A program made the position numbers and the translations under genes. Below, piece after piece: positions 3,189 through 52,920 of a DNA stretch of 52,920 bases; within the stretch, counting starts at the first letter, position 1, and the number at the start of each line of letters is the position of its first letter. This DNA comes from Cyanobacteria bacterium K_Offshore_surface_m2_239 (GTDB lineage: Bacteria; Cyanobacteriota; Cyanobacteriia; PCC-6307; Cyanobiaceae). The stretch is from NCBI GenBank assembly GCA_016882305.1, contig VGQX01000005.1:1-52920 (forward strand), given 5' to 3'. The notes beneath the pieces are model-generated. The model made no database searches. It was not told the DNA's origin and was given only the letters and a program-made list of their open reading frames with translations.

Positions 3189-3260
3189 GGCGCGGCGCGG
3201 GGCTGGTCAGCGTCCCCTGGCCTCGATACCATCGGGCACCTCGATCAGGCCCGCAGCACC

Positions 3261-3881: not shown

Positions 3882-3944
3882 CCGCTCGTCCTGCCCGGCG
3901 AAGATGGCGCCAGACTGCAAGCACTCTCACCCCACCCCCTGCTG

Positions 3945-4355
3945 ATGGCAGCCGACCCCTTTGACGCCCTGCGCCTCACCCTCATGCAGGACGTGCTGCC
4001 GGTGGGCCTGGCGATGGTCGACCGGGTGCGCAAGGGAGGCCCCAAGGAGGCGCTCGCCGCCTTTGATGGACGCAGTGCTGATCCCTTGGGCAGCCTGCGC
4101 CAGGAGGGCGAGCCCGCCGCCCGCACCCTGCGCGACACCTTGGATCGCCTCCAGCCTGGCCTGGGCAATCCCGTGCTGAAGGTCGAAGTGCGCGATGTGC
4201 CACCGGAGCCCGCCGCCACCCCCTCAGCCGCGGCCAGCGACGACGGGGGCCGCGGCCTGGATCCGGGGAAGGACGATCCCGAGGAGCTTCAGGCGGCCCT
4301 CAGCCGCATCGCCGGCCGCTTGGAGCGACTTGAGCGCCTCCTGGAGGTGCGCTGA
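3945..4355 (+). CDS. Hypothetical protein
   Basis: 136 aa ORF ending 8 bp before the PBP2 gene, coding-like composition. Confidence 0.55.
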   Translation: MAADPFDALRLTLMQDVLPVGLAMVDRVRKGGPKEALAAFDGRSADPLGSLRQEGEPAARTLRDTLDRLQPGLGNPVLKVEVRDVPPEPAATPSAAASDDGGRGLDPGKDDPEELQAALSRIAGRLERLERLLEVR

Positions 4356-4363
4356 GCGATCCC

Positions 4364-14766: not shown

Positions 14767-14966
14767 ATGCGCAGGGAACGAATAGGAGCGATCCTTTTCC
14801 CCCTATGTGATGAGAGTGATGGTTGCCGATCGACACAAGATGACCCGTTAGCGGATTGTCAAATCATGCCTTGTTTGAAGCTAGCCGGTTTCTTTCGAGA
14901 CGAGCCATCCGCGTGGATCATCCAGAATGGGGCCCTTGGACCCCCCTCTTTGCTTTGCAGACGACG

Positions 14967-15890: not shown

Positions 15891-16831
15891 AGTTCGTAAA
15901 GTAAGCGATAGGCTTTTCTGTGGATCCACCAGTTCCTGGCGGAGGCTGGCTCAAGGCCGATGGAAAACCATAGACGCGCTAGATGCTCCCTTGCCAACGT
16001 GAGGTTGCCTGGCTCCCTCCAGGCCTGCGTTGTTTCTAGGATCCAAGAGGTGATACTGCAGCATTCGTCAAGATAATTGTCGCGTTGAGAACGGCGAACC
16101 GTGTTGGCGTGAAATCTATAGTAATTAAGCGGTTTTGCTGCATAGGCAAGCGAATGTTCTCGCATGATACTTACCCAGAGGATAAGGTCTCCACCGAGCT
16201 TGTAATCAGGCTTGAGAAGATAGGGGCTTGTATAATGTTGACGTTGAAAAACAACCGCACTTGCATTGGGGATGATATTTTTTATTGCCGTAAAGCTGAG
16301 GGCAAAGTAAGTTCCGTCAACGCAAAAATCATGCCTCCAAAGATGACTGCTAATGTGGTCGGTCCATCCCTTGAGTTGGGCTGTGACTGCCGAATTTTCA
16401 TTGATGCTAAATGATTGGCAATAAGCCATGGCGGTAGCTGGATCTTCCAGTTTTGCCACCAACGTTTCCAGGAAGTCTGGCGCCGCCACATCGTCTGATT
16501 CGGCGATCCTAATCAGTTCACCTCTGGCCAGGCTAATGCCTCGATCCCATTGCGCAAATGTCGAGCCAGAGTTGACTGGGTTGATCACCAGTTGATAAGG
16601 ATAATCGCGGAGATGGCTTTTAATGACTTCGACGGAGTTGTCGGATGAGCAGTCATCTAATATGATGAGCTCGAAGTCCTGATACGTTTGTCCAATCACC
16701 GACTCCAACCTTTCTTTGAGGTAGAGAGAGTGGTTGTAATTTGGAATGATAACACTGACCTTCGGCACCATGTCTGCCTTTTCTCCAGTGGCTTGCATTG
16801 TTGTACGAGAGCATGCTTTTGTGTTGATCAT
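15839..16831 (-). CDS. Glycosyltransferase family 2
   Basis: VPKVSVIIPNYNHSLYLKERLESVIGQTYQDFELIILDDCSSDNSVEVI, ESDDV. Confidence 0.92.
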   Translation of the reverse strand: MINTKACSRTTMQATGEKADMVPKVSVIIPNYNHSLYLKERLESVIGQTYQDFELIILDDCSSDNSVEVIKSHLRDYPYQLVINPVNSGSTFAQWDRGISLARGELIRIAESDDVAAPDFLETLVAKLEDPATAMAYCQSFSINENSAVTAQLKGWTDHISSHLWRHDFCVDGTYFALSFTAIKNIIPNASAVVFQRQHYTSPYLLKPDYKLGGDLILWVSIMREHSLAYAAKPLNYYRFHANTVRRSQRDNYLDECCSITSWILETTQAWREPGNLTLAREHLARLWFSIGLEPASARNWWIHRKAYRLLYELHAPIGFGGRWGCVPCG

Positions 16832-16953
16832 CTGGAGCGTTGCTCGCGTGGAGCCTAAGACCTAATCGATGGAATGGGTTCATCCCTTGAGAAAATAGTA
16901 TCAGGGATTTCTCGATACCTGGGTCCTCTGGTCACGATGGATTCGTTCTCATC

Positions 16954-16995
16954 GCGCCCGCAGCGATGCACCCGCAGCGAGGCACCCGCAGCAAG
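16954..16995. repeat. Three 14-bp tandem units (GCRCCCGCAGCRAK type)
   Basis: gcgcccgcagcgat / gcacccgcagcgag / gcacccgcagcaag followed by a partial gcacc. Confidence 0.8.
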
Positions 16996-17041
16996 GCACC
17001 AGGGTCGCCGCTTGTGTTCTCCGCCGATCCCAGAGGATCCT

Positions 17042-17092
17042 GCCCCCACGGCCATCCCCTGCCGCACAAACCCTTGGGATGGCCGTGGGGGC
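17042..17092. repeat. Perfect 17-bp inverted repeat with 17-nt loop
   Basis: GCCCCCACGGCCATCCC (17042-17058) and its exact reverse complement GGGATGGCCGTGGGGGC (17076-17092). Confidence 0.9.
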
Positions 17093-17188
17093 GGCCAGAC
17101 CTGTTCAACCTCGCCTCAGGGCATTCGCGCTTGGGCAGGACACCAAAGGAATGCGATCAGACTAAGGGCTGATCGCTGTGCTTGACGA

Positions 17189-19111
17189 TTATTCTTTATT
17201 GCCCTCCATATCAACAACTTGTCCGTTGAAGAAATCAGCCAGCAGCAGCGTTGATTCCTCTAATAAACGGGCCTCCGCTTGCGTTTGCGTCTTCTCTGGA
17301 ATTGCCCCATTGACATTCGCTTCAATCTGGCCCTCAGGGCCAGGGGCGGGCAGGGGGGCCTCTGTGGCCAGCGGCTCTTGCTGCTTGGGTTTGGGGGCGC
17401 CTTGGACTTCCCGGAAGGCAATGCTTGCCTCCGGACTCTTGTCGAGCTCGTCCAGAGGGGGAGGCTCTGCTGGACCAACCGCCTGTGGTCTATCGCTGGC
17501 GGTGGCGGTGGCGGTCGCAGGGAGTGCGGAGGCGGGAGGGATGGGCGGAACTGGGGGTGCAGGGCTTGACGCCATCGCATCGCGGACCGCGCCATCGGAG
17601 TGCTCGTCGCGGTCGCTGGCTTCGAGCGTGACCTGCCGAGGGCTGCCGAGAGCCGCCTCCATCGCCTTTTCAAGCAGGGGCAGCCGGCTTTGCACCATGG
17701 TGATCCAGGTGCTGGCCACCCTCACCACAGCGCGCCGCTCATCCAGCCGCTTCAACCTGGCCTGTTGTGAGAGCAACATCCGCGTCGAGGGAAGCTGAAG
17801 CCCGGCCAGGATCCGCTGCCAAAGCTCGTCCAGTCCCGGCGTCGCCTCCGCCTGCGAGATCGCTGGAGCCGGTTGAGCCGGAGCCTGGGTCCTGGTCGCT
17901 GCGGGAGGCGTGGACCTCCGCGGCTGCGCGGGAGGGCTGGACTCGGCAGGGCTGGGGGGCTTGCTGGCGAGCGGTGCCGCCGCCGCCCTCGCCGGTGATG
18001 GGGGCGTGACTTCCGCCAGAAGCCCGAGCAGGATGACCTCCAGCCAAAGCCTGGGTTGAACGCTGTGGCGCAAGTGCTGCTCGCTTCCCTTCAAGGCGGC
18101 ATGCCACTGAATCAGCCGGTCTTGGCCGATTTTCCCGGCCAGAGGGGCCAGTTCGCCGCGCAATGGCGGAGACACGCTGGTCAGCTCCAACCGTTCCGGC
18201 GCCACTCCAGCCAGGAGCAGATCCCGCAACAGGGCAACAAACCCTTGAAGCACGGCGTTGGGGTCCCGACCGCGATTCAGCAGATGCCGTGAGGTTTCCA
18301 CCACGCCAAGAGGGTCGCCAGCGGCCATGGCTTGCGTCAAGGAGAGCAATTCTTCTTCCGGAACCGCGCCGATGAGGTCCCAGACGGCATAGGCTTCGAT
18401 GGGAGGCGGCAGCAGGCTGAGTTGGTCCAGAAGGCTCTCCGCGTCCCGCAGGCCGCCCTGTGCTCGCTGAGCCACGAGGTGCAGGGCCTCGGGGGTGATG
18501 GCGATCTGTTCCTGGTCCGCGATCCAGGACAGGTGGTTTTCCAGCGCCTCCAACGGGATGCGACGAAAATCGAAGCGCTGACAGCGAGACAGGATGGTGG
18601 GAAGCACCCGCTGGGGATCGGTGGTGGCCAACACGAACACCACCTGGGGTGGGGGTTCCTCCAGGGTTTTCAACAGGGCGTTGAACGCCGCGGTGGACAA
18701 CATGTGACATTCGTCCACCACATAGACCTTCCAGCGGGCCTGCACCGGTGCGAAGCGGGATCGTTCGATCAGCTCGCGGATGTTGTCCACCCCTGTGTTG
18801 GAGGCGGCATCGATCTCGATCACATCGAGGGCATTGCCTGCTGTGATCGAGAGGCAGAGCTCACAGCGACCACAGGGCTCGGCTGTGGGGCCGTCGCTGG
18901 TGACGCAGTTGAGCGATCGCGCCAAGATGCGGGCACTGGAGGTCTTTCCCGTGCCCCTGGGGCCACAAAACAGATAAGCGGGAGCGATGCGTCCCGTCTT
19001 CAGCGCATTGGCGAGGGTGGCCGCGATCGTTTCCTGGCCGACCAGTTCGGACAGGCGCTGGGGGCGATATTTGTGGTGGAGTGGCTGGTAGACCTGGTCC
19101 ATGGACGCCAT
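17189..19111 (-). CDS. dnaX: DNA polymerase III subunit gamma/tau
   Basis: YQPLHHKYRPQRLSELVGQETIAATLANALKTGRIAPAYLFCGPRGTGKTSSARILARSLNC, DECHMLSTAAFNALLKTLEEPP; probable start MASMDQVYQ at 19111. Confidence 0.97.
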   Translation of the reverse strand: MASMDQVYQPLHHKYRPQRLSELVGQETIAATLANALKTGRIAPAYLFCGPRGTGKTSSARILARSLNCVTSDGPTAEPCGRCELCLSITAGNALDVIEIDAASNTGVDNIRELIERSRFAPVQARWKVYVVDECHMLSTAAFNALLKTLEEPPPQVVFVLATTDPQRVLPTILSRCQRFDFRRIPLEALENHLSWIADQEQIAITPEALHLVAQRAQGGLRDAESLLDQLSLLPPPIEAYAVWDLIGAVPEEELLSLTQAMAAGDPLGVVETSRHLLNRGRDPNAVLQGFVALLRDLLLAGVAPERLELTSVSPPLRGELAPLAGKIGQDRLIQWHAALKGSEQHLRHSVQPRLWLEVILLGLLAEVTPPSPARAAAAPLASKPPSPAESSPPAQPRRSTPPAATRTQAPAQPAPAISQAEATPGLDELWQRILAGLQLPSTRMLLSQQARLKRLDERRAVVRVASTWITMVQSRLPLLEKAMEAALGSPRQVTLEASDRDEHSDGAVRDAMASSPAPPVPPIPPASALPATATATASDRPQAVGPAEPPPLDELDKSPEASIAFREVQGAPKPKQQEPLATEAPLPAPGPEGQIEANVNGAIPEKTQTQAEARLLEESTLLLADFFNGQVVDMEGNKE

Positions 19112-19856
19112 TCTGGCCCATGGTCCAGGATGCGGTGGCGCAGGCGGGTGGTTGTCATAGCGTGCAAGCGAAGTCGCTGGAAAAATTGGCCCAAGCAGAA
19201 TTCGACATTCATCAGACCAAGTCTTCGGTTTTTTTGGTGACAATCTGCCTGAGTTTCTGTGTCATCAAGATCTCAGCAAAATCTATTTGATCTTGACAGT
19301 CCTGGCGCTATATGAAATCATTTTTCACATGTGAATCTCGACCAGGCTGGCATGCGCTGCGAGAGCTCCATACCAAAAACATCGATGCTCAACGTGAGCA
19401 ACCCTTAATGTCCAGCGGCATTCTGCATGGTTCTTCTGGCTTAAGCTTGGAGAATAAGTTTTATTCAATTCATGAATCAGCTGCCAGGTTGTCGACATTG
19501 CTTGCTGATGAACCTCGAGAACAGACTGCGACTTCTTTTCGACGATCTTCCCTTCAGGATATTGCATCAAAATAAAAATCATCTGGTAGCAAATGAGCTA
19601 ATGCTTTGGTTGTTGACCCATCCAGCAAACGCAGTTATTTGGGTGTTCTGAAGAACTTTGCAAGATGAAATGTATTGTAGCAAAAGTGAATTAGTCATGG
19701 CAGTTTTTTCAGAAATTTATAATGCGTGCTAATTTAAGCTTTTTCGTAGACCTTGTCTTCCTGTAGCGAAGATCAATCTCCCAAAAACTGGAAGACTTCT
19801 CAGCTTTTGGGAGGACAAGTTATGCATTGAGAGGAACACTCATGTGAAAAGAACAT

Positions 19857-20771
19857 TCATGGTGAATTTTTCCGCAGCTTTTGTTTGAGCCAAAACTTTG
19901 TATAGGCCAAAAGAAGGTCTGAACGGTTGTGAAAGCGAAAGAACTCAATCCAGTCTCCAATGATTCGTGCTTGTGATGCGCGACTTCTTGGAAGAGTCGT
20001 CCACGGAGAATCAAGGTAGATTGGTGCCCTTGCTGGTACGTTCGTGATGTCTTTCGGGTGTGGGAGAGAGGCAAAGGAAAGATGGGAAAAATAGTGTGGA
20101 AAGCGATCTTTTCGTAAGAACGTTACTTCCAAAAGCCTTGGAACATTTGTCCCTAGAACTTTTGGCGGGTACATGCCCAAGGCAATATTAGGATGGGCAT
20201 GAACACAGACGAAATTTTTATCTAGTTTTTGCAGAAGCGGTCTCATGACTTGGTGAAAGACTCGTGGTCGAGTGAAGCCAACAGCAACTCGATGCAATTC
20301 AAGGATGATGATACGAAACTTTTTAAGCTGCGAATCGTCGGTGGCTAGCAGATTTCTGTATTCAGCCCCTTCGATATCCATTTGCAGCATTTGATTATCG
20401 CTGTCGGCCGGAAGCGCTGAGATCCATTGGCTGATCGATAGGCTGTCATGGCCAGAATCTGTGTCAAGCCATTTTTTCGTGAACGTCTGCATGCCGTCGA
20501 TGATGGGAGTAGAGAACTTGTCTGCATCACTGCTTGCATCAACCAAATCGCTGTGAATTCTGTGAGATTGTGCCAATTCATCCTCGAGAAACTTGAAGTT
20601 GTTGACGCCTGGAGAAAGACATCTGCTGATACCCTTAAGGTCATCCGGCACGAGGTAAGCACCATCGCCAGAGCCTCCTGTTCTAATCAAAGGATAGGGA
20701 GAAATCTTTGGAATTAGTATCTGTAGGGCCGAAAGGGCTTCTTCTGGGGTGATTGGCCTGGTGTCATCCAA
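19857..20771 (-). CDS. FkbM-family methyltransferase domain protein
   Basis: YPLIRTGGSGDGAYLVPDDLKGISRCLSPGVNNFKFLEDELA...NQMLQMDIEGAEYRNLL...FRIIILELHRV. Confidence 0.75.
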   Translation of the reverse strand: MDDTRPITPEEALSALQILIPKISPYPLIRTGGSGDGAYLVPDDLKGISRCLSPGVNNFKFLEDELAQSHRIHSDLVDASSDADKFSTPIIDGMQTFTKKWLDTDSGHDSLSISQWISALPADSDNQMLQMDIEGAEYRNLLATDDSQLKKFRIIILELHRVAVGFTRPRVFHQVMRPLLQKLDKNFVCVHAHPNIALGMYPPKVLGTNVPRLLEVTFLRKDRFPHYFSHLSFASLPHPKDITNVPARAPIYLDSPWTTLPRSRASQARIIGDWIEFFRFHNRSDLLLAYTKFWLKQKLRKNSP

Positions 20772-22028: not shown

Positions 22029-22721
22029 CTATTTCTCTGCTCGCGTTTCCAGCGCACTCTCTATTCTTGTCTGCAGTTCTTCGACCTGGCTTAGCTGATC
22101 TGCCAGCTTCTGGGCTGCAAGCTGAAGCTGTACAAACTGATCGTCAGGACGATCTTTCCCATTCGAGCCCCAGCGTAGTTCGGCGCGGCTCAGCTCCTCC
22201 TCCAGGCGTGCCTGCAAGCTTCGCTGCAGACCCTTGAGCTGCTCGATGCTCGACCATGCCAATTCACGGCCCTTGTCCAGATGCTCGGGCTCCACTGTGA
22301 TGCCATGGCGCAACAGCATGCGTGCGCCGGTGAGCACGGCGGCAGGTATGAACTGGCCGATCGCCAGTGCGCCCAGACTGCCGGTGTGGAGCCAATCCTC
22401 CACTTGGTTGCTGCGATGACGTCCGGTTTTGCACCAGTGAGCGAAATGCTCGCAATTATTGAAAAGGAGGTTGTAATTCTGCTCTCCAAGTCGCCCCATC
22501 GCTCGACGCACCGTCACCCCGGCCGGCGAACAATTGCCAGGGGGGTAGTCCACAGTCGTCATGGCGAGACCCCGGCTGAAGTCCTCTCTGGTGCTGCGCA
22601 ATATCTCCCTTCCCTCCAGGTAGTGCGCCACCGTGCCGTCCCCCAAGTCGATTCCGTGGTGCTTGAAGAGGCCGTGTTGGCGGGGAACTTGCAGATGGTC
22701 AGCTGCGGCCACGTGCGGCAC
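22029..22721 (-). CDS. LRAT (lecithin:retinol acyltransferase)-domain protein
   Basis: HGLFKHHGIDLGDGTVAHYLEG and NYNLLFNNCEHFAHWCKTGRHRSNQVED (NCEHFA catalytic Cys block), C-terminal coiled-coil. Confidence 0.85.
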   Translation of the reverse strand: MPHVAAADHLQVPRQHGLFKHHGIDLGDGTVAHYLEGREILRSTREDFSRGLAMTTVDYPPGNCSPAGVTVRRAMGRLGEQNYNLLFNNCEHFAHWCKTGRHRSNQVEDWLHTGSLGALAIGQFIPAAVLTGARMLLRHGITVEPEHLDKGRELAWSSIEQLKGLQRSLQARLEEELSRAELRWGSNGKDRPDDQFVQLQLAAQKLADQLSQVEELQTRIESALETRAEK

Positions 22722-39957: not shown

Positions 39958-40152
39958 CGGACATCAGCGGTGTCCTCACTCTTGAAAGTGGTGGTCACGA
40001 ACCCGCTCCGGTGCCGCAGGGTACGCTCCATGCTTCAGCACTGACTCGTTAGCACCTGGGCCATCAAGGGGGCTTTGGCAATGGGAGGTGTTCCAACACC
40101 TGGCGCCTCAACGTGGTCAAACTTTTGTTTAAACCTGCCGCTCACCTCACAC

Positions 40153-40905
40153 TTAGGTCGGCAGTCGCCAGATCCGTTCCGCAGCATGTCCACCGGCGAA
40201 GGATTGGCTGTAGGCGGCAAAGGCTTCAATCGGAACAGGGCTCCGATAGGCCCCGATAGCCTTGCGTTTGCTTTCCATGTGTCGTTGCTCCAGTCGTAGC
40301 ACCTCGGCCTTCATCCCACTGCTCCTTCTGGTGAGTTCCTCCGCGCCCCGGGGGCTGAAGACATAGGGAGCATCCTCATAAAAGGCTACGGGCAGCCCTT
40401 CCTCCGCCAGTAGTTGTGCCATCCGGTGGGCGAGTTGGTGGTCCACGTGGTTGCCCACGGCGAGCGGTGCGAGGACCAGGGTGGTTTCGGTGAGGTGGAT
40501 TCGGGAGCGAAGAGAGGCGATCAGTGCCCGGGGCAGAGAGCTTTCTTCGGGGTGCAGGCTCCCGAAGATGTGCTCCGGCTCGGGATAGCGCCACCCCACA
40601 CCATCGGCGCGGAGGCGGTAGAGGCAGTCCTGATGATTCAGGTCGATGGATGACACCCCGAGGATTGCGAGGGCTTCTTGGTCCCGCTGCCGTCGGAGTT
40701 CCGTCAGGTCCAACGCACCAAACCGCTGGTGATAGGCCTCCGCCTGGGGTGACAAGAGGGGGCCCGGGTGGCCCGTGAACAAATTGACCACGGTGACCTC
40801 CCTGCCCAGCTCCTGCCATCGATGGATGGCACCGCCCAGGGAGAAACAGGCGTCATCACGGTGGGGGGAGATGACAAGGCAGGGGCTTGGTAGGGCGGCT
40901 TCCAT
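40153..40905 (-). CDS. PIG-L family (LmbE-like) deacetylase
   Basis: CLVISPHRDDACFSLGGAIHRWQELGREVTVVNLFTG (PHxDD) and VGNHVDHQLAHR; likely start MEAALPS at 40905. Confidence 0.88.
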   Translation of the reverse strand: MEAALPSPCLVISPHRDDACFSLGGAIHRWQELGREVTVVNLFTGHPGPLLSPQAEAYHQRFGALDLTELRRQRDQEALAILGVSSIDLNHQDCLYRLRADGVGWRYPEPEHIFGSLHPEESSLPRALIASLRSRIHLTETTLVLAPLAVGNHVDHQLAHRMAQLLAEEGLPVAFYEDAPYVFSPRGAEELTRRSSGMKAEVLRLEQRHMESKRKAIGAYRSPVPIEAFAAYSQSFAGGHAAERIWRLPT

Positions 40906-40909
40906 GACG

Positions 40910-42529
40910 TCAGTCTCCGGGAACGAGGGCCAGGATGCCTGCACAGAACAGCTCGTCCACCAGGGCAAGATCTGTTGTACCGAGAGCGGTGATCACGTCG
41001 TCCGCCTTGCGGCCGAGGATCCCGTGGATCAGGGCGTGTTTGTGTGGAGGGAGAACTTCGTTCGCCAGATCGGAGATGATGGCGCCGCTGAGGTGGTTCC
41101 AGGAGCGCACCAGTGGTCCCAGGCGGATCGTCAGCTGCTCAGAATCGAGAGTTTTGATGGACGCCTGTTCCTTGTGTTCGAGGCTGGAGAGACAGGCGGA
41201 CAGATCTTTCATCATGGTGTCATGACAATAGTTCTTCATGATGAAATCTCTCCCCCTTGCGCAGGCCTTCTTTATCGTATCTCGGCCTACTGTGCTGTCG
41301 TGGACAATCCGGTCGCCAACTTCATTGTAGCCTTTGCGGGCGCCGAATACCATGGCTTCACTTTCGATGACATTGATCCCATTGTTCTCCGGCAGAACAT
41401 GTCGCATATTGCCAGATCCGTTTGTGTAGACAGGGCAGCCATGGAAGACAGACTCTAGAACGTAGATTCCAAATGCTTCCGGAACAACGTTGTAGGAAAG
41501 TCCGAAAGTGCAGGACTGGAAGATCCTGAACAGCTGTTTCCTTGGTAGCCTGGGCATTGGAATCAACAGATCCTTCAGTCTGAGTCCCTCTTGCTTCAAC
41601 TGGTCATGCAAGCGCAGGGCCCATGGGTTGGTTGGATCCAGGAGATAGGTTTCAAGGCTGGCTAAGTCCACTTCAGTCACGAGTAGCCGTGCCTTGCGGC
41701 CCTGTTCCGCGGAAACGCGTGATAGATAGAGCATGATCTCAAGATGGGCAAATTTATCGCTTTTCCCTGGCTGAAGGGAGTGGCCGAGGAGAACGTCCTC
41801 TTTCATTGCCTGTTCCACCGCGGGCGGCAGTTGACTGAGTGCTTTGCGATCATCCTGATCTAAACAGGAGGTAGAGAGCCACGGGAGGCCTAGTCGGATT
41901 GACTTGACAGAATAGTAAGTTCTTGCATCAATACGCCATCCATTTTGCCAGCGGGGCATGGCGAGAAGCCCTTGGAGTACTTCGGCTAAGTAGAGAGAGT
42001 TTGCAAGGTAAAGATCAACATCAGTATTGCTGCTCCATATGCCCACATTCCTTGCCATACCATGAAAGAAGATCACGTTGTGCCGAGCATTTTTCTTGCT
42101 TGGAGGGCAGATCTGGACACCGCCGTCGCAATAGAGGGCTAAATCCACTGCGTTTGATGTGAGGTTGGCAAGCCTTCGGGCCTCCTTCATGGCAAAGGAA
42201 AGGCCGTTTTGAGTGGTCTTGTCTTGAATGGTCTCAACGTATGAAATGGAAGAGAGGTTGTAGCCAAATTCTTCTAGGGCCTCCTCCAGTAGGGCATTGA
42301 TGGTGTGTGGGGCACCAGGTTTGGGGTTCGTGGAGGCGTGATAAAAAAAGATATTGGCATTTCTCCCTTGGCCCGTGGCTGGGGCCCATTCTGCCGCCTG
42401 CTGTTCAGCAACCTTTCCGCTGGAGAGCTTACCCATCGCCTTGATGGAGTCGATGGTGCAACCAGACATCTTCGACCCGAATGAATGATTGGAAGACGTT
42501 ACAAGATTAAATGCTGATGATAACATCAA
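40910..42529 (-). CDS. Glycosyltransferase (GT4-like)
   Basis: CTFGLSYNVVPEAFGIYVLESVFHGCPVYTNGSGNMRHVLPENNGINV, with EX7E (EAFGIYVLE) characteristic of retaining GT4 enzymes. Confidence 0.75.
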   Translation of the reverse strand: MMLSSAFNLVTSSNHSFGSKMSGCTIDSIKAMGKLSSGKVAEQQAAEWAPATGQGRNANIFFYHASTNPKPGAPHTINALLEEALEEFGYNLSSISYVETIQDKTTQNGLSFAMKEARRLANLTSNAVDLALYCDGGVQICPPSKKNARHNVIFFHGMARNVGIWSSNTDVDLYLANSLYLAEVLQGLLAMPRWQNGWRIDARTYYSVKSIRLGLPWLSTSCLDQDDRKALSQLPPAVEQAMKEDVLLGHSLQPGKSDKFAHLEIMLYLSRVSAEQGRKARLLVTEVDLASLETYLLDPTNPWALRLHDQLKQEGLRLKDLLIPMPRLPRKQLFRIFQSCTFGLSYNVVPEAFGIYVLESVFHGCPVYTNGSGNMRHVLPENNGINVIESEAMVFGARKGYNEVGDRIVHDSTVGRDTIKKACARGRDFIMKNYCHDTMMKDLSACLSSLEHKEQASIKTLDSEQLTIRLGPLVRSWNHLSGAIISDLANEVLPPHKHALIHGILGRKADDVITALGTTDLALVDELFCAGILALVPGD

Positions 42530-42532
42530 AAG

Positions 42533-43567
42533 TCATCTTTCTTTGGAATTTGGTCCTCTGGTGCCTCGGCGCAATGCGTTGGCCAGCGTCACGGATATCC
42601 TTTGATCATTAGATTCGCCGTACCACTGAAAAAGACTGGGCAGCATCAGTTCTTTATTTCGTGGCAGCAGGTCCCGGAAGCTGGTAAGAAACCGAACGGG
42701 TCCGTACTCAAGAACCGTGAGCCGAGGACAACGGCTCTCCCATGTCCCAAGGGGCTCAAGCGCGATTGGTTGCCGCATGATGGCCCAGAGGTGCTGCGGA
42801 TCGAGCCTGTTCACCATGGAGCCTGTTGCGCAGGAGTACCAGGGCCCCCTTCCGGGCCTGGTGGGCAGAGTGTGAAGGTCGGCGGCGAGAGCCTCGAAGG
42901 CTGGTTCCAGCAAAGGGGTGTGGAACCCGTAGTTCACCCCGATGGAGACACAAATCATGTCCCGTTCAGTAAACCAGGCCAGCACCTCCTGGAAGTACCC
43001 GGTGGGGCAGGCGGCCAAATGTGCCCCGGATCCCCCCAGGAAGCTGAAGATGGGTGCGTTATCAAAGGAGGGGGGAAAGATGGTGGGGATGGGGCCATTC
43101 ACGAAGTAGCAAACCACTGGCTCTGTGGTGGTCTCGATCACGCGACTCATCCTCAGCAACCATCCCAGCACATCTCGCTCCGTACAGACACCGGAGATGG
43201 TGGCGGCAACAAGTTCCCCCAAGCTGTAGCCGATCAGCAAGTCGGGCATAGGGGCTTCGGCCAATACCGCCCGGGTCAGGAGCAGGGTGTGCAGATAGGT
43301 GGAGAGGGCGGTGCGAGCCAGGGGGGAAAGCGAGGGGGGAGTGGCGATTCCCTGCAGGAAGGGGAGGAGCGGGGGGAGTCCCAGGTCTTTGAGGATGAAC
43401 TCAAGGACCCCATGCTCTTGAAGCAGCAGGGGATCCCGGCCATGGACGGCAGCCAGGGGGCCGGGCTCGAAGGAGCCGAGGCCAGGAAGCAGGATCCACA
43501 AGTCCTGAGCGGGAGGCCGTTCCACGCAATCCCCTCGGAGCAATCGTTCAGCAGACAGTTCATCCAC
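42533..43567 (-). CDS. Free-standing acyltransferase, malonyl-CoA:ACP transacylase (FabD)-like
   Basis: WILLPGLGSFEPG (PGxGS), LLIGYSLGELVAATISG (G-Y-S-L-G nucleophile elbow), YGFHTPLLEPAFEAL (catalytic His), VLEYGPVRFL. Confidence 0.82.
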   Translation of the reverse strand: MDELSAERLLRGDCVERPPAQDLWILLPGLGSFEPGPLAAVHGRDPLLLQEHGVLEFILKDLGLPPLLPFLQGIATPPSLSPLARTALSTYLHTLLLTRAVLAEAPMPDLLIGYSLGELVAATISGVCTERDVLGWLLRMSRVIETTTEPVVCYFVNGPIPTIFPPSFDNAPIFSFLGGSGAHLAACPTGYFQEVLAWFTERDMICVSIGVNYGFHTPLLEPAFEALAADLHTLPTRPGRGPWYSCATGSMVNRLDPQHLWAIMRQPIALEPLGTWESRCPRLTVLEYGPVRFLTSFRDLLPRNKELMLPSLFQWYGESNDQRISVTLANALRRGTRGPNSKER

Positions 43568-43790: not shown

Positions 43791-44512
43791 ATGCTGCCTT
43801 ATCTCTACTTCAGAGAATTGGAATCCTTATCGGTTAGCCCATACGATCACGCGGCAGCTAGTGTCGCTGATCGATAGGGAAACATGGGGAAAAGTCGTTG
43901 CCATTCTTCCTGCGGAGTGGCGGTTCGGGATCCACCATCTTCGGCAGATCTGTAACCATGTAGGAAATCGGCAGAACTTATGCTTTTTGTCTCGGCGCCA
44001 CACGTATGGCTGCGGTCTGCGTGGTGCCTGACAAGCCTCACATGGGGGTGGATATTGAAGGACTGTTCGGTTGCCTGCATGGGCTACTCATTGAGGATCG
44101 TATTCTGATGCAGGAAGAGATGGAGAGCCTGGTTGGCTGTGCCAGCGGTGAACGGCCACGTCTCCAGACCAAGCTTTGGACGCTCAAGGAGTCCTTGTTG
44201 AAGGCCACGGGACTTGTGTTAAACCGACCTATGGGTCGTGAGGGAATTCGTTTGGATGGATCCTTGCCTGAGAAGGCCGAGATTCCGGATTGGAATGAGG
44301 CTGGCTGCCGGGTCTTGGTTTCAGGGCAGCAAAACAATGGGTACTGTTCTGAATTCATCATCAATCTTCGCAAGCCTGAAGGTGGGAAGCTTGAGCGAAG
44401 TGATTTTTTTGGGGGAGTTAGCCTACAAAGCCTTTCTTACTTCAAGCCGATGCTCAGATCCTGCCAAAGCAAATACAAATATTCTGTGTTACAAGATTCA
44501 GTGCCGATTTAG
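43791..44512 (+). pseudogene. Sfp-type 4'-phosphopantetheinyl transferase, apparently frameshifted in its N-terminal half
   Basis: ORF 44006..44512 carries MGVDIEGL and KLWTLKESLLKATG but starts only about 13 residues before GVDIE; an adjacent frame (about 43813-44003) reads ENWNPYRLAHTITRQLVSLIDRETWGKVVAILPAEWRFGIHHLRQICNHVGNRQNLCFLSRRHTYG, like the missing N-terminal half. Confidence 0.65.
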
Positions 44513-46642
44513 GTAGCCGCCTTCGGCGTGGATGAGTTCATTGAAGCTTCCTGATTCTACGATAAGTCCATCTTTCATCACAAGTATTATATCGGCTGAT
44601 TCAATCGTGCTTAGACGGTGAGCTACCGCAATCCGGGTGATAGGAAGGTTGTTGAGGGTATCGGTGACCACCGCCTGGGTTGGTGCATCCAGAGCACTCG
44701 TAGCCTCATCAAGGATCAGCACGCTGGGATCGCCGACCAGGGCTCTTGCCAGGGCGATCCTTTGCCGTTGCCCACCCGAGATATTGGTGGAGTTTTCTGT
44801 GATTACGGTGTCAATTCCGTTTTCCAGACGTTGAATTCCATCAGCAATTGAGGCGAGTTCACAGGCGTGCATGACCTTATCAAGATCGAATTCTCTCCCA
44901 GCTTTTATAATATCAAGAATCGAGCCAGAAGGGAGGGGAGTATTCTGCATGACAACACCAATCTGCTGGCGATAGGCGCGGATCGACCACTGGCTGAGTT
45001 CAAGGTTGTCTACAAGTATCTGGCCAGATTGGGCGACATCAAATCCGAGAATGAGTCGCAGGAGTGTCGACTTCCCGCAACCACTGTATCCCGTAATCGC
45101 GGTGTATTTCTGCTTATCAATTTCAAAGGACAATCCCTTGAGAACTGGGTTTTGCATTCCGGGATACTGGAAGTAAATTCCAGACCCCCTATAGGTACCT
45201 TGCAATTCCTTCCGGATCGCATGAGGATTGTAGCCTACCTCAGGAGTTGAGTAGAGAACCACTTCTGCCCTAGCCCATAGACTTTTGACTACCGATAATG
45301 TACTGGAAAGCTGAAGAGCAGCTTGTGAAAGAAGTGTGTTGAAGCCGGCGTAGGCAACAAGGAAGCCAACAACGCTGGCAACAAGAAGACTATTTCCTAC
45401 AAGAAGGGTGTTGGGAATCATCAGAACAACAGAGCTGATAACGACCAGGTTGCCAATAGGATTGATTGACTGAGAAAGGATGGTTAATAGACCTGTATAG
45501 TACTGCATCCGCTGATTGGTAGAAGTTAGTCTAACCAGTGACTTCATCCATTGGTAAAAAATAAAGGGCTCTGAGCCGGTAGATCGAATTTGCGGCAATC
45601 CAATGACTGATTGCAGAGAAAAATTGGTTATCTCTGCAAATTGATCAAATAAGGTTACCAAAAAATTTCCTTGTTTATTTGAAAGGTAAAAAACAAGAAA
45701 AACACTAATCAATGCAAATACAAGTGCAATAGAGGCTAGCCTCCCATCATAGGAAAACATTAAAAAGAAAAAGGAGAATGAAAACAATATAGATATGAGT
45801 GATGACATGAAACCAGCAGATAAAATCTTTCTTGCCTGAGTAATTGCAGTGACTCGCGAGGCAACATCAGAAATAGAATATTTATAAAAGAAAGGGATAG
45901 GTAATTTCATCACCCTCGCCCAGGTAGCGGTTTGCAGCCGCAAGTCAACAAGGGATTCAACTTTGAGCTGGGCAAGTTTTGCATACGCGTTTGCTACAAC
46001 ACTTGCAACAAGAATAAGAAATACAAGAATAGCCGTGTCAATTAATAGCCTTTCATTCGATTGAGGGAGTACAGTCGCAACTAAATAATTGACCACCATA
46101 GGTACAACCAAAGCAAACAGAGTGACAATGACAGAGGAAACCAAGAACAGAAGAAGAGTGTCGACACTTGAAGAATATGTAAATTTCAAAACGTCTATCG
46201 CACCATTAATTGTATAGGGGAGATGCGCATAAACCTCGTAGCATATCTGCCTACATTGGGATAAAAGTCTCTTGCTATCCTTGATGCGATAGATGGAACC
46301 CGTCCCAGTATTGTAGGCAAAGGATTGAACACCATTCCTAAATACGACATAGATTGATTCGTCCGAGTTCGATTCAATTAATAAAACTTGAGTACGCTTT
46401 TTTGTGAGGTTATCCGGCACTTCTACCTCACGGAAGCAAACATCATTATTGGCAAGAAACTCACGTAGGGAGTTGGTTGTCAGGTCATCAGGCATCTGGT
46501 CCGTCGACAACCGCTGGAGAGCGAAGTTTAAGGCTAGAAATCGGTCAGAGCAATTTTGTGGCAATACAGATTGCTGAAATGCGCTCGATTCAAGTGACAG
46601 AGCAGATTCAAGCGCCTTAGAAGAAAAGACTCTGTCTTTCAT
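44498..46642 (-). CDS. ABC transporter permease/ATPase, NHLM bacteriocin-export-like (ABC2 type)
   Basis: N-terminal soluble domain of about 150 aa, TM domain, GYSGCGKSTLLRLILGF Walker A, NISGGQRQRIALARALVGDPSVLILDEATSALD. Confidence 0.85.
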   Translation of the reverse strand: MKDRVFSSKALESALSLESSAFQQSVLPQNCSDRFLALNFALQRLSTDQMPDDLTTNSLREFLANNDVCFREVEVPDNLTKKRTQVLLIESNSDESIYVVFRNGVQSFAYNTGTGSIYRIKDSKRLLSQCRQICYEVYAHLPYTINGAIDVLKFTYSSSVDTLLLFLVSSVIVTLFALVVPMVVNYLVATVLPQSNERLLIDTAILVFLILVASVVANAYAKLAQLKVESLVDLRLQTATWARVMKLPIPFFYKYSISDVASRVTAITQARKILSAGFMSSLISILFSFSFFFLMFSYDGRLASIALVFALISVFLVFYLSNKQGNFLVTLFDQFAEITNFSLQSVIGLPQIRSTGSEPFIFYQWMKSLVRLTSTNQRMQYYTGLLTILSQSINPIGNLVVISSVVLMIPNTLLVGNSLLVASVVGFLVAYAGFNTLLSQAALQLSSTLSVVKSLWARAEVVLYSTPEVGYNPHAIRKELQGTYRGSGIYFQYPGMQNPVLKGLSFEIDKQKYTAITGYSGCGKSTLLRLILGFDVAQSGQILVDNLELSQWSIRAYRQQIGVVMQNTPLPSGSILDIIKAGREFDLDKVMHACELASIADGIQRLENGIDTVITENSTNISGGQRQRIALARALVGDPSVLILDEATSALDAPTQAVVTDTLNNLPITRIAVAHRLSTIESADIILVMKDGLIVESGSFNELIHAEGGYLNRH

Positions 46643-48405
46643 TTTACTTGAGAGTCCTCAGATAGAAGTAGATTCAAGTAGTATCCAGGGACCTCTGCAA
46701 GCTCTTTTGGATGGCCTCTCTGGACAATTTTTCCGCGTTCAAGAACAATAACCTGATCGCTCAATTGTGCGGATAGCATCCTATGGGCAACCGTGATTAA
46801 TGTTCTTTCTTTCGACTTAATCACTGAAAGAACCTCTGCCTCTGTGCGATCATCCAGGGCACTTGTTGCTTCATCCATTAATATGATCGATGGGTCTCTT
46901 ATTAAAGCTCTTGCGATCTCAATTCGTTGCTTTTGACCGCCACTAAGATCTGAACCATTATCTCTCAGCATTCGATTAACACCATCAGGGTAAGAATCAA
47001 TCTCTTGGCGGAGCTTGGCGTCGCAAAGAGCCTTATAGGCATCGAGCTGATCAAATCTAGGATCCCAAAGTGTTACATTCTCAAAAATAGTTGCTCGAAA
47101 TAAGAACACGTCCTGAGCCACATAGGCCATGGACGTTCTGAGCTGTAGATCTGGAATTTCTTCCCACGGCTTTCCATCATAGAGAAGAGTTCCTTGATCA
47201 TGACTATAAAATCCAGCAATCATTTTTAGCAACGTACTTTTTCCAGATCCACTTCCTCCAACAATGGCCAAGTGTGTACCTGCTGGAATATTAAAGTTTA
47301 AACCAGAAAAGATTGGATCCTCAGCCTCAGGAAAGCGATAGTGAATGTTCTTACCTTCAATGTGGCCAATAAGGCGAGGATGGGATTGGGATTCATTTGC
47401 AGAGAATGACTGTACTCTTGGATCCTTATCATTGGCAATCACATCCGAAACACGACCAGAAAGGCCCGTCAGTTGTTGAATTGTGTTGGCAAAGTCAGAA
47501 ATATTTCCCAAAGGGGCCACAACGCTTCCAAGAAGAAACTGGAAAGCAATCAGTGATCCCAGAGTAAGTGATCCATCAAGAATAAGAAATCCACCAATAA
47601 TAACAATGGCTGCTTGAGTTGCAAAGGTGGACACGTCGCCTAAAACCGCAGTAAAAGCAACATAGAGGCTTTGAATCTGCTGACCATTCACACCAACGGA
47701 GAACTTGTCTGACCACTTATTGAAAAACTCGTTTTCTAGCGCAGATGCTTTGATACTTTCAATGGTTGAGATGCCACTTGTACCAATACCATCCGCAAGA
47801 GCTTGAACCATCGCAAGCTTTCGATTTTCACCTTCGCGCCGCTGGGTAATCTGTGCGGTGACCAGGAGATTGGCAACAAGTATTAACAATGAGATAACCG
47901 TTAATTTGACAGATATTAGAAGGGTGAAGAATAGAATAGTGAAAGCTCTTAAAATGCTTAGGCAAAAAGCAAGCAGTTTCGAAACTGCCATTTGTCCAAT
48001 CTGCATGCCCAATGCCAACCTTGCAGAAGCTTCAGCGGGTTGGTTTGAGAGAAAGAAATGAAATGGTAGGCGGAAAAGCTGGGTAAATACCGTAACACTG
48101 ACACGTCGTATAAAGAGACTTTCAAGACGCCGAAGAATAAGCATCTGAAAGGCTAAAATGGAAATAATAAGTATGGAGGAAATCAGAAGAACCCAGCTGA
48201 TTGGGACGGCAAAATTAAGACGGTTATTGATTAGATAAGAATCAATAAACTGAGAAGTTGCACCGGCGATGATTAGCTCAGGAACAATAGAGGCTACGCA
48301 GATGGGCATAAGGAGAAGAAGCGGTATCTTGTACCGGCTGAAAATATCTATAATCCAGGAAAAGGATGAACTAGGTTCTGTCAATTTTCCACTAGTTGTT
48401 GTCAT
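46639..48405 (-). CDS. ABC transporter permease/ATPase, exporter type, no N-terminal C39 peptidase domain
   Basis: 588 aa; TM domain from about residue 25; GGSGSGKSTLLKMIAGF, DLSGGQKQRIEIARALIRDPSIILMDEATSALD; 4-bp overlaps with both neighbours. Confidence 0.9.
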   Translation of the reverse strand: MTTTSGKLTEPSSSFSWIIDIFSRYKIPLLLLMPICVASIVPELIIAGATSQFIDSYLINNRLNFAVPISWVLLISSILIISILAFQMLILRRLESLFIRRVSVTVFTQLFRLPFHFFLSNQPAEASARLALGMQIGQMAVSKLLAFCLSILRAFTILFFTLLISVKLTVISLLILVANLLVTAQITQRREGENRKLAMVQALADGIGTSGISTIESIKASALENEFFNKWSDKFSVGVNGQQIQSLYVAFTAVLGDVSTFATQAAIVIIGGFLILDGSLTLGSLIAFQFLLGSVVAPLGNISDFANTIQQLTGLSGRVSDVIANDKDPRVQSFSANESQSHPRLIGHIEGKNIHYRFPEAEDPIFSGLNFNIPAGTHLAIVGGSGSGKSTLLKMIAGFYSHDQGTLLYDGKPWEEIPDLQLRTSMAYVAQDVFLFRATIFENVTLWDPRFDQLDAYKALCDAKLRQEIDSYPDGVNRMLRDNGSDLSGGQKQRIEIARALIRDPSIILMDEATSALDDRTEAEVLSVIKSKERTLITVAHRMLSAQLSDQVIVLERGKIVQRGHPKELAEVPGYYLNLLLSEDSQVK

Positions 48406-49874
48406 GATGCGTCTGTTGCGATGCCTAGGAACTTACGAAGTACAGGGATCACTAGCTGAATAGGTGTTTGTGTATCAGTCGTTACTTGGACGTTTACAGT
48501 ATTTCCTAGGCGTGTCGGAAAGGGGGGCTCTTCTCCCGAATTCCAGAGATAGCATTCTTCTTTTGTTTGGGAGTTACAGGCTTGAGTCTGGTCTTTATGG
48601 ATTTTTTGAAGCTTTACAACTACGCGAAAGGGAACTGATTGGGATGTATTGACCAATTGACCAACTTCTTGGATACCTGTCTGTGCGCTAATTTCCTCTA
48701 GGCTAGATGGAGAGGTGTCGACTCTTTCTACAGATGCAATAATCCCACCGTACTGGGCTCTGGAGATGCCTGATGGGGTCACCAAGGCCTTCATGCCAGG
48801 AAAGATTTGTGAAGCCTGCTTGGCATTGAAATACGTGGTGATATAGGTTGGAAGTATTGGATTAGAAGTTGTATAAAGAAAGGCGCTTGATCCTGTTGTA
48901 ATGGTCTGTTGATTTCTGAAGCTGGTATTAACTACGTAAAGATCCGTGGGAGCAATCAAATAGGCTTTGTTGAGATAGTCAAAAAGGGCGACTCGTAATG
49001 CTAGTAGATCGTTCTTTATGTCTGTATCTGATTGCAATAGCTTTTGTTGGGAATCCTGTATGGACTGCAATAAGGAGATAAGCTGACTGTTAGCCGTTAT
49101 TAGATTTGAGCGAAGTCCCAAGACTTGAGAAGAAGCCTGAAGATATAGACTTCGAGGTACCCATCCAATCTTTGCCAGTTTTTCAAGAGTCTTTTCCCAA
49201 TCTAATTGTTGTGCTACCTGTTCGCGGACGACCTCCTGTTGGCCCGATTGAAGCTTGTAGGAACTAATGTAGTTCTTCAGTAGTGTCTTTAACCTTTCTT
49301 CGGACTTTAGGCGAAGTCTTATAGATGTTGTAGTTTGCCTAAGTTTAGAAGCCAGCACTTCGCGATCGTTTGGAGAATCTATAATAGCTAGAACAGTTCC
49401 TCTCCGAAAAACGGTATCTATATCTTCATGGTTCTGAGGATAGAATTCATGTGCAGAACCTGATTCTTTGGGAGAGAGAGTGATCTTTGTAATGGTAGAC
49501 AGGATTTTGTTAACACTAGATCTGCTTAACTTGCGATTTCTAATTTCTCCTTGAAGAGCAATTGCTTCTTCGTCGAGGGAATCGCCATTCCAGAATTTAC
49601 GCACCCTAATATTGATTGGTGATTCCTTATTTGAGTTGGGAGACACCTGATAAAAAATAGTGCCCGTTGCTCTCGCGGGCAAACTTGATAGACCTCCTGG
49701 CGGGACAATGACACCTAAACCTTCTACCTGCATGGGGATTCTGGCGGTGTTCGACCAAACAACCCCTAGGGCTGCGATACCAATAGCAATCCATAGACTC
49801 GTTCGTAGGGGAGCCTCCAGCACTTGTACAGGTTGGGGACGATTTTCCTTGGGTTTAGGCTTTGATTCAGTCAT
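48402..49874 (-). CDS. HlyD-family membrane fusion/adaptor protein (NHLM secretion-protein-like)
   Basis: Single N-terminal TM (SLWIAIGIAALGVVWS), IPMQVEGLGVIVPPGGLSSLPARATGTI, long coiled-coil, C-terminal beta-barrel region. Confidence 0.85.
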   Translation of the reverse strand: MTESKPKPKENRPQPVQVLEAPLRTSLWIAIGIAALGVVWSNTARIPMQVEGLGVIVPPGGLSSLPARATGTIFYQVSPNSNKESPINIRVRKFWNGDSLDEEAIALQGEIRNRKLSRSSVNKILSTITKITLSPKESGSAHEFYPQNHEDIDTVFRRGTVLAIIDSPNDREVLASKLRQTTTSIRLRLKSEERLKTLLKNYISSYKLQSGQQEVVREQVAQQLDWEKTLEKLAKIGWVPRSLYLQASSQVLGLRSNLITANSQLISLLQSIQDSQQKLLQSDTDIKNDLLALRVALFDYLNKAYLIAPTDLYVVNTSFRNQQTITTGSSAFLYTTSNPILPTYITTYFNAKQASQIFPGMKALVTPSGISRAQYGGIIASVERVDTSPSSLEEISAQTGIQEVGQLVNTSQSVPFRVVVKLQKIHKDQTQACNSQTKEECYLWNSGEEPPFPTRLGNTVNVQVTTDTQTPIQLVIPVLRKFLGIATDAS

Positions 49875-49939: not shown

Positions 49940-51646
49940 CTATGGTCTACCATTCTTAAGCTGCATAATAAGAACATCGGAAAGGCTAACTCCCGTGTAG
50001 TCAGGCCAAGTAGAAGTGTTCCTGTACAGACGGTTGATTGAATTATTGTGTAGCTCTATGGCTGATGCGAGAGATGTTGTTGAATCAGAAAGGGATTTGA
50101 TACTAAGGACCAAGGGTGTAATGGTGTCAACTCCAACGGAATATCTTACCCTATAGATTGCAGTTGCATTCTTTGCGGCTTGAACAGCTCTCTTGGCCGA
50201 GAAAATAGAGATTTGTGAATTTCTATAGTTGGTAAATGAACTTGCCGCATCAGCGCTAATCTGTGCTTTCTGTAGCCGAGCTGTATCTAGGGCTTGTTTA
50301 GCTAAGCGCTCTTGACTTCTTGCTAAAGATAAGTTCACCCCACCGTCATATAAGTTCCAGGTTATATTTGCTGACAAAGTGAGAGTGGTATTTAATTGCT
50401 TATTTATAGAGGGACTTAGGCCCCATAGTTCTTGTGCAATAATGCCTTTGTTGGCTAAAATGCTTGTGTTAGCATTTAGACTGAATGAGGGCAGATACGA
50501 GGCAATGATCTTCTTTGCATTCCAGCCTAAAGACTCAGCAAGCTTAGCAGATGCTTTTATTTCTTCCCGCATCTTTAATGCCATATCAATAGTTTGATTC
50601 AGCGATTGATCCCAAGAACCAATTGGCACAAACTGATCCTGAGGAACAATGTACTGATGTCCTACCTGCCCCAGTGCTTTTCCAAGCTCATTTTGGGCAT
50701 TATCTAGGGAAAGATAGGCATCAATGAGTGTTATAAGATCTTGATATAGTTGTGTCTTTTGCTGCTCAATATCAGCCTGTGAAGACAAACCGGCTTGTTT
50801 ATTCTTGCGAATCTGATTTAGTATGGCAATATCTGTTTCAACAATACTAGAGAAAGCTTTAATTAACTCGAGCGCTTTTTGAACACTTGTATAAGCAAGC
50901 TGAGTGTTGAGTATGGTATCACGTGCTGCTATAATAAAGAGTAACTTCTGTTGGTCTAGTGCCGCTGCTTGGGAGCGAATTAATGGTTGCCGTGTTGCTA
51001 GATACGGGTACCAAGACAGACCCAGGGAAGTGCTAAGTAAAGAATTGTCGGTATATGTTGAAGATGGCGAAGGTTGTGTTGATAGGCTGGGCTTATTCAG
51101 TGGATAATTTGACAATGTTTGCCATGAGTATCCGCCCAAGGCTGATATCCCAACAGAAGGATTCCACTGACGCTTAGCACTAGCAACTAAGGCATCCTGG
51201 GACTGTATTGACTCAAATGCAACGTCTAATTGTGGATTATTATTGACAGACTCAATAAGTAAATCTCGGAGAGTTGCTTGCCGAGAACCATCGAAAAGAT
51301 TCTTTTGAAAAAATTCAAGTTGTTTGATAATATCTAGCCAATCGTCCCCGCTTTCAATACTTACCAGCTTCAATAATTCCGAAGTATTGATAACACTCCC
51401 GATTTTTATGCCTAAGCCTGTATTTATTATGATTCTAGGCAGGATATCTTTGGTGGCTGTAGTATCTCCATGTGTCTTGCCTGGGATAGCAAGTGCAGTC
51501 GAAACTCGAAAGACCAGGCATATAGCTACAAAGGCAAAGCTGAATCCACGAATCCAGATTGTATAGCTCTTAGTCTGGATACGCATTTGGCATAAGTTCG
51601 TTGCATCCATAAGGCAGTTATGCAATTTATTGTATGAACTTATCAA
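49940..51646 (-). CDS. TolC-family outer-membrane efflux protein
   Basis: N-terminal hydrophobic signal; TLRDLLIESVNNNPQLDVAFESIQSQDALVASAKRQWNPSVGISALGGYSW and repeated helical halves typical of OEP/TolC. Confidence 0.88.
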   Translation of the reverse strand: MISSYNKLHNCLMDATNLCQMRIQTKSYTIWIRGFSFAFVAICLVFRVSTALAIPGKTHGDTTATKDILPRIIINTGLGIKIGSVINTSELLKLVSIESGDDWLDIIKQLEFFQKNLFDGSRQATLRDLLIESVNNNPQLDVAFESIQSQDALVASAKRQWNPSVGISALGGYSWQTLSNYPLNKPSLSTQPSPSSTYTDNSLLSTSLGLSWYPYLATRQPLIRSQAAALDQQKLLFIIAARDTILNTQLAYTSVQKALELIKAFSSIVETDIAILNQIRKNKQAGLSSQADIEQQKTQLYQDLITLIDAYLSLDNAQNELGKALGQVGHQYIVPQDQFVPIGSWDQSLNQTIDMALKMREEIKASAKLAESLGWNAKKIIASYLPSFSLNANTSILANKGIIAQELWGLSPSINKQLNTTLTLSANITWNLYDGGVNLSLARSQERLAKQALDTARLQKAQISADAASSFTNYRNSQISIFSAKRAVQAAKNATAIYRVRYSVGVDTITPLVLSIKSLSDSTTSLASAIELHNNSINRLYRNTSTWPDYTGVSLSDVLIMQLKNGRP

Positions 51647-51657: not shown

Positions 51658-51906
51658 TCAGCTAATGGCGCCTGAGGCAATTCTTTTGCGGCAAGTGATC
51701 ACTTGGTTCTGAAGACAGTTTGGCATGATATTTGTCCAATTACTGTCTATGAATTCAAGGCACTCTTCTTGGCTATTGCTGGAATGAATGGTGATCCAGC
51801 CTGCCGGCGGGGCAAGCTTAAAGGACCACAAAGCATATTGGCCTTCCTGGTTCTTCACTACACGGTACTGATGGCCTTGAACGTGCCGCTGTAAATCGTT
51901 ACGCAT
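51658..51906 (-). CDS. MbtH-like protein
   Basis: HQYRVVKNQEGQYALWSFKLAPPAGWITIHSSNSQEECLEFIDSNWTNIMPNCL aligns without gaps to the remembered MbtH pattern (VVxNxEGQxSLWPxxxxxPAGWxxxxxxxSxxxCLxxxxxxWTDMRPxSL); three Trp conserved. Confidence 0.85.
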   Translation of the reverse strand: MRNDLQRHVQGHQYRVVKNQEGQYALWSFKLAPPAGWITIHSSNSQEECLEFIDSNWTNIMPNCLQNQVITCRKRIASGAIS

Positions 51907-51953: not shown

Positions 51954-52808
51954 ATGGCTGATTCAATGAAAATAGATATAAATCTTTGTGAAAGCCTTTG
52001 TCGAGATGGAGCAATAGTTCTCCCCGATGCTTTTACCGGTGAATCGGTTTCCACTTTGTATCGTGGCATCTCTAGGGATCTTGAGCTGATTAGTCCCTTC
52101 AAGGCGATGATACACAATAGTAGTGGTCCTGGGATGACTACTAATATCTGGCGGACTACGGAAATTGAGGAATTCAATTCCCTCTGCAATAGCCCTGAAA
52201 TGATTGATCTTGCGAGGCAACTGTTTAATGGAAAGTCTTTTCGTTTCTTGCAAGACACTTGGTTTTTGCGACCCGCAGGTTGTGAAGTCTCTATTCCTTG
52301 GCATCATGACAATATCATTGAAGGTGATCACTACTCAATTTGGATTAGTTTGACTAACCATTCACCTGGCGATTCGCTTTCATTTGTTGCGGGCTCCCAT
52401 TGCGATGGAGAAAACTATATGCCGCAGTCATACTTTGTTGAAGGACTTGAAGCCAGCTCAGAAGTTGAAGAGTATTACCAACGCTACAATCGGGCATCCC
52501 CTTCAAATTTGTCGACTGTATTTACCCCTATACCTAGTGATCAGGAGCTTTTGGCGACCCGGAAAATTCTTTCTTGGCCAACAAAGCCAGGTGATTGTAT
52601 TATTTTTAATAGCCGTTGTCTTCACTCACTGCCCAGTCATGACACCGCCCAGGAAAGAGTTGGCTTTGTCACTCGATGGATTCTTGATGGTAGTAGGATA
52701 GCTTCCCATGCCCATGACACCGTAAAGGCTATTCACGATGCAGGACTCGGCCAAGACCTTTCCGTGCAGGATGTTATTCATGGCGAATTATTCAGACGTT
52801 ATTCATAG
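51954..52808 (+). CDS. Phytanoyl-CoA dioxygenase (PhyH)-family Fe(II)/2OG oxygenase
   Basis: CEVSIPWHHDNIIEGDHYSIWISLTNHSPGDSLSFVAGSHCDG (HxD), PGDCIIFNSRCLHSLPSHDTAQERVGFVTRW (distal His and Arg). Confidence 0.88.
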   Translation: MADSMKIDINLCESLCRDGAIVLPDAFTGESVSTLYRGISRDLELISPFKAMIHNSSGPGMTTNIWRTTEIEEFNSLCNSPEMIDLARQLFNGKSFRFLQDTWFLRPAGCEVSIPWHHDNIIEGDHYSIWISLTNHSPGDSLSFVAGSHCDGENYMPQSYFVEGLEASSEVEEYYQRYNRASPSNLSTVFTPIPSDQELLATRKILSWPTKPGDCIIFNSRCLHSLPSHDTAQERVGFVTRWILDGSRIASHAHDTVKAIHDAGLGQDLSVQDVIHGELFRRYS

Positions 52809-52869
52809 CCTGAACTTTGCAAAAGGGCACCTCGAATAATGCGTGTTTTTGGCTTGCAACCTCGGATAT

Positions 52870-52891
52870 AAAAAAGCCGCCTCGGGGGCGG
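52870..52891 (-). terminator. Probable intrinsic terminator for a minus-strand gene beyond the right edge
   Basis: Minus strand reads CCGCC-CCCGA-GGCGG-CTTTTTT. Confidence 0.65.
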
Positions 52892-52920
52892 GAAGGCATG
52901 AATCTTCGCACGATTCTTTC

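Follow-up and report, generated by a model that had tools for sequence, protein, structure and literature searches.

A divergent MbtH-like protein on a probably acquired low-GC island at a contig end of a cyanobacterial genome

The open reading frame (ORF) at 51658-51906 on the reverse strand of the window, a 52,920-nucleotide stretch of contig 5 from a cyanobacterium whose family and genus were inferred from its genes and relatives, really does appear, as judged from its sequence, to encode an MbtH-type helper protein of peptide-building enzymes. The find is fairly ordinary, the MbtH-like family being already known, and the explanation that we consider reasonably probable is that of an ordinary MbtH-like protein (MLP) on an acquired low-GC island, with its client NRPS missing from the assembly. 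The features of the window on which this account draws are as follows.

51658-51906, reverse strand: MbtH-like protein, 82 aa, with the motifs ALWS and WTNIMPNCL (PF03621, PDB MbtH matches, consensus count)
51954-52808, forward strand: PhyH-family Fe/2-oxoglutarate dioxygenase (PF05721, 39 bits)
52825-52920, forward strand: end portion of an IS-like repeat in which the contig stops (matches at the ends of contigs C165 and C289)
49940-51646, reverse strand: TolC-family outer membrane efflux protein, downstream of MbtH (PF02321 and TIGR01844)
48402-49874, reverse strand: HlyD-like adaptor, NHLM type (TIGR03794, 71 bits, below the cut-off of 156)
46639-48405, reverse strand: ABC permease/ATPase, NHLM ABC1-like, without an N-terminal C39 peptidase (TIGR03796)
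44498-46642, reverse strand: ABC permease/ATPase, NHLM ABC2-like (TIGR03797, 479 bits, below the cut-off of 709)
44006-44512, forward strand: fragment of an Sfp-type phosphopantetheinyl transferase, C-terminal half only (PF01648, residues 13-81)
42533-43567, reverse strand: stand-alone acyltransferase-like protein of uncertain cluster membership (weak PF00698, 21 bits against a cut-off of 32.7)

The initial annotation had called this ORF a divergent MbtH homologue and proposed a search with the Pfam MbtH profile, and the search bore the call out: PF03621 matches at E 5.3e-14 and 51.8 bits (cut-off 27), with residues 11-54 aligned to profile positions 9-52/53, and phmmer against the PDB recovered 15 distinct MbtH sequences, several from structures solved in complex with adenylation (A) domains (PMC11253843). 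The best of these, 5u89_B (E 4.8e-12), aligns without gaps to residues 13 to 77 of the ORF, which is an open frame with an ATG start, and W27, W37 and W57, the three conserved Trp that are a hallmark of MLPs (PMC3537567), are all present, so that the gap-free core and signature Trp residues noted before were read correctly. Moreover, scored with an HMM of 25 further MbtH proteins from cyanobacteria, the ORF obtains 47.3 bits, against 10.8 for the best of 1000 composition shuffles; on such comparisons of sequence, MbtH homology is well beyond chance. The MbtH fold was taken to be a three-stranded antiparallel sheet with a C-terminal helix, and the single-sequence AlphaFold2 model of the ORF, at a mean pLDDT of 62, has three strands and then a helix; with this model, none of the Foldseek matches reached E <= 0.001, and MbtH was not among the 50 matches listed. 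The short extra C-terminus that had also been remarked upon exists, as about 17 aa beyond L65, but many homologues are nearly as long.

Divergence was scored at the 19 positions of the consensus VxxNxExQxSLWP-x5-PxGW-x12-L-x6-WTDxRPxSL; this consensus is present in over 85% of 133 MLPs (PMC7593251) and so is not strictly defining. The ORF matches at 14 of the 19 positions, the changes being S25A, P28S, D59N, R61M and S64C, the last an addition to the earlier motif readings ALWS and WTNIMP, which were exact. Among the 25 other cyanobacterial homologues, 24 keep 16-18 of the 19 positions, and the exception, L033, keeps 12, a count that rests on a translation ending at a premature stop. Identity between the window protein and the canonical cyanobacterial MbtH proteins is 31-40% over the matched part. 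P28S also occurs in one cyanobacterial homologue, L011; Ser at position 25 is kept in all 25 and is Ala in the window protein, the one unusual substitution, at what would be an A-domain contact. The equivalent residue of TxtH, S23, is predicted to form a hydrogen bond to the A domain, and mutagenesis of this Ser was reported to show its importance for solubilizing A domains, while the position of D59N falls outside the interface as counted for FscK (PMC7593251). Departure from the C-terminal motif is compatible with function elsewhere: YbdZ, the enterobactin MLP of E. coli, has WRTxTPxN in place of WTDxRPxS and works with EntF (PMC7593251), and the MLP domain of ObiF1 is functional without WTDxRP (PMC6668435). 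The block WTNIMPNCL is a milder change than that of YbdZ, and the ORF, with its Ser-to-Ala exchange at the main contact, offers one natural test of drift at the MLP/A-domain interface.

Low-GC genes extend from 44.5 kb to the contig end, with a marked GC change near 44 kb: the ABC2, ABC1, HlyD, TolC, MbtH and PhyH genes have a GC of 0.41-0.48, and the host genes holA, cobH and uvrB one of 0.61-0.73. MbtH probably lies on a horizontally acquired, low-GC genomic island, with which the gene probably arrived; no match to the island was found among plasmids. The PhyH gene is divergent from MbtH, with 47 bp between the start codons, and its nearest solved structure is MysH (E 3e-10); its substrate could not be named from relatives, which are too distant at about 25% identity. 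Upstream of the phosphopantetheinyl transferase ORF there are in-frame stops, and the N-terminal part was not found in the upstream frame tried, which suggests a truncated gene or a pseudogene.

Other parts of the window are of interest in their own right. The acyltransferase-like protein has an 89% identical copy in G361, and the trio that it forms with a PIG-L and a 539-aa protein (40136-43477) is 91% identical at positions 2554-5896 of L079, from another genome of the genus, where it adjoins an apparent purL instead of cobH, as a relocating cassette would. The 539-aa protein (40910-42529) has no Pfam, NCBIfam or PHROGs match and is 86% conserved in G361. An LRAT-family (lecithin retinol acyltransferase-like) protein is encoded at 22029-22721, near the clpX region, and a second low-GC patch (14856-20771; about 0.45-0.5 in parts) holds family-2 glycosyltransferases and an FkbM-type methyltransferase.

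The IS-like repeat, of which the contig holds 96 bp before it stops, lies 919 bp upstream of where MbtH starts, and this break has a simple cause, because the repeat recurs, near-identical over 97-101 bp, at the ends of C165 and C289 of the same genome, and its first 15-16 bp agree, but for one mismatch, with the terminal inverted repeats at both ends of an element in C175 that has a DUF772 transposase. It is this repeat that broke the assembly, and anything located past PhyH is merely missing from it. No contigs flanking the other IS end were found in a search allowing up to 2 mismatches; a low-GC island contig could have been omitted when a 65% GC genome was binned, and 20 contigs sampled have a mean GC of 0.65 and a minimum of 0.51. 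On C165, a low-GC P450 gene adjoins the same IS-like end as terminates the window.

The ORF is the sole MbtH of its genome and the sole one among 398 family genomes searched, and a single-protein scan of the genome contigs collection confirmed no close MbtH relatives. NRPSs are not foreign to the genus, since condensation (C) domains above cut-off occur in 12 of its 42 genomes, and the congeners with NRPSs do without MbtH; the resident NRPSs thus appear MbtH-independent. An MbtH in one of 398 genomes, though NRPSs occur in such a share of congeners, therefore probably marks an acquired natural-product cluster, most of it unsequenced. In the assembly itself (343 contigs, 95.6% complete, 3.3% estimated contamination), neither an NRPS condensation domain nor an NRPS-type adenylation domain was found. 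Four AMP-binding hits were set aside as candidate clients, as they look housekeeping on reading: that in C4 is acyl-CoA-synthetase-like and not an NRPS A domain, those in C135 and C107 are one acetyl-CoA-synthetase-like gene in two pieces, and that in C289 is MenE-like. Ketoacyl-synthase hits were likewise rejected as island genes, being FabF-like or within a high-GC PUFA-synthase-like locus (L036 and L037, on C165 and C67).

That the gene does not sit beside an adenylation domain had been taken as a sign of a different client. The observation stands, and extends to the whole assembly, but it loses its force as an argument because the contig is cut just past the next gene and because at 21 of the 25 other cyanobacterial MbtH loci an NRPS probe containing a condensation domain likewise matches nothing in the 1.5-kb flanks. 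Cyanobacterial MbtH genes thus commonly stand apart from A domains; the lack of an NRPS says little where the contig ends in an IS-like repeat so close to MbtH, and the proposal of a different client finds no support. Among plasmids, the homologue of highest identity (48% over 52 aa) adjoins an adenylation-domain gene.

Downstream of MbtH lie the genes of an exporter similar to NHLM systems; its HlyD-like adaptor, ABC1 and ABC2 stay below their NHLM/NHLP equivalog cut-offs (71 of 156, 469 of 853 and 479 of 709 bits for TIGR03794, TIGR03796 and TIGR03797, respectively). The match of ABC1 begins at profile position 139, and Pfam Peptidase_C39 finds no match in it, in contrast to the relative at L082:7149-9392; the peptidase is apparently kept in four family relatives examined (by length and sequence, with the Pfam test for L082), and its loss would be in keeping with a cargo that carries no leader peptide. 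The HlyD-like adaptor is 31% identical to that of a family relative. The 11 bp given earlier between MbtH and TolC hold only for a TTG start at 51646, but the ATG starts at 51610 and 51586 give 47 and 71 bp; either may be the true start, and what follows the second ATG (51586) resembles a signal peptide. LanM-like and Nif11-like genes, recognized by reading sequences, lie with related exporters in L082 and G559; in L082, a Nif11-like leader peptide (302-571) and a LanM-like protein of 1059 aa (1746-4925) lie by the NHLM exporter. An MbtH and HlyD pair in G559 was discarded as one cluster, as the two are 43 kb apart in separate clusters.

Under the explanation that we favour, an MLP would have entered the cyanobacterium on a low-GC island that brought along the exporter and tailoring portion of a natural-product cluster. 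In characterized MLPs, two Trp clamp an Ala or Pro of the A domain and the third lies on its PxxTA pocket (PMC7539972, PMC6668435); here, W27 and W37 would clamp the conserved Ala/Pro at the outer surface of an NRPS A domain, with W57 packing on the nearby PxxTA pocket, and the domain would thereby stay soluble and active. The gene of the client NRPS would lie beyond the IS-like repeat, lost in assembly or binning, S25A, P28S, R61M and S64C would be matched by the MLP's own partner, and the exporter would handle the NRPS product. For this explanation speak the above-cut-off PF03621 score, the PDB MbtH matches, the low GC of the island, the repeat at the contig end, the C domains of congeners and the plasmid homologue next to an A-domain gene; retention of every Trp of the clamp likewise argues for an ordinary MLP role. 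Against it stand the lack, in an assembly that is 95.6% complete, of any C domain or NRPS-type A domain, the replacement of Ser25, important in TxtH (PMC7593251), and the truncated phosphopantetheinyl transferase, which hints at decay. The linkage of exporter and MbtH is also unproven, because related cyanobacterial exporters serve lanthipeptide-like clusters and not NRPSs.

The main rival, which we hold to be unlikely though worth serious thought, is that the island's NRPS was removed by transposition or deletion, leaving a client-less MbtH that persists while its motifs drift. The absence of NRPS domains, the surviving C-terminal half of the phosphopantetheinyl transferase, an IS-like end beginning 16 bp after the PhyH stop and substitutions at interface sites where the 25 cyanobacterial MbtH proteins show little or no variation would fit such a relic; yet the frame is undamaged, the three Trp and 14 of the 19 consensus positions are retained, the frames of the exporter and PhyH genes are likewise open, and an assembly gap explains the missing NRPS equally well. 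Service to A domains elsewhere in the genome is more doubtful still, even though orphan MLPs serving distant NRPSs, such as MXAN_3118 of Myxococcus xanthus, are known (PMC7593251, citing Esquilin-Lebron 2018) and congeners have NRPSs, for the assembly has no NRPS elsewhere and the NRPS-bearing congeners manage without MbtH.

A client outside the NRPSs, be it an acyl-CoA-synthetase-type enzyme or an exporter or oxygenase partner, seems very improbable. The only adenylate-forming enzymes of the assembly are acyl-CoA-synthetase-like, acetyl-CoA-synthetase-like and MenE-like, and interface residues are altered, but the protein retains the Trp clamp, which is specific for NRPS A domains, and no precedent was found; moreover, those enzymes are of housekeeping types that presumably occur without MbtH in relatives. 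It is just as hard to credit that S25A and R61M fit the protein to a non-standard partner (another adenylate-forming enzyme, or the co-encoded export and tailoring pathway) in a genome without NRPSs: no positive evidence was obtained for a client of a new kind, a conceivable reading but not a supported one. Equally slim is the chance that the low-GC contig end arose by chimeric assembly or as contamination with foreign DNA, which the marked GC change near 44 kb and the estimated contamination of the bin might suggest; composition shifts stepwise across open genes (GC 0.63, 0.53, 0.61, 0.51, 0.44), and the terminal repeat also ends other contigs of the genome, as expected of a resident element. 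A missing partner is more likely unassembled than exotic.

Compared with known systems, the window protein shares with the MbtH-like family PF03621 an above-cut-off HMM score, the three Trp and a gap-free core, and differs at five of the 19 consensus positions. It is of the same length class as the 25 canonical cyanobacterial MbtH proteins and has their core, but these are near-invariant for QYSIW and WTDMRPLSLR, unlike the window protein. YbdZ is likewise a departure from WTDxRPxS, in a functional MLP whose partner EntF is known, whereas none was found here. Like MXAN_3118, an orphan MLP encoded outside any NRPS cluster, the gene stands apart from an NRPS, but the genome of MXAN_3118 has at least seven NRPS partners and this assembly none (PMC7593251). 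The exporter has the TolC-HlyD-ABC1-ABC2 gene set of the NHLM/NHLP-type exporters of family relatives, some of which adjoin LanM-like and Nif11-like genes; the relatives examined apparently keep the C39 leader peptidase, and the ABC1 of the window is without it.
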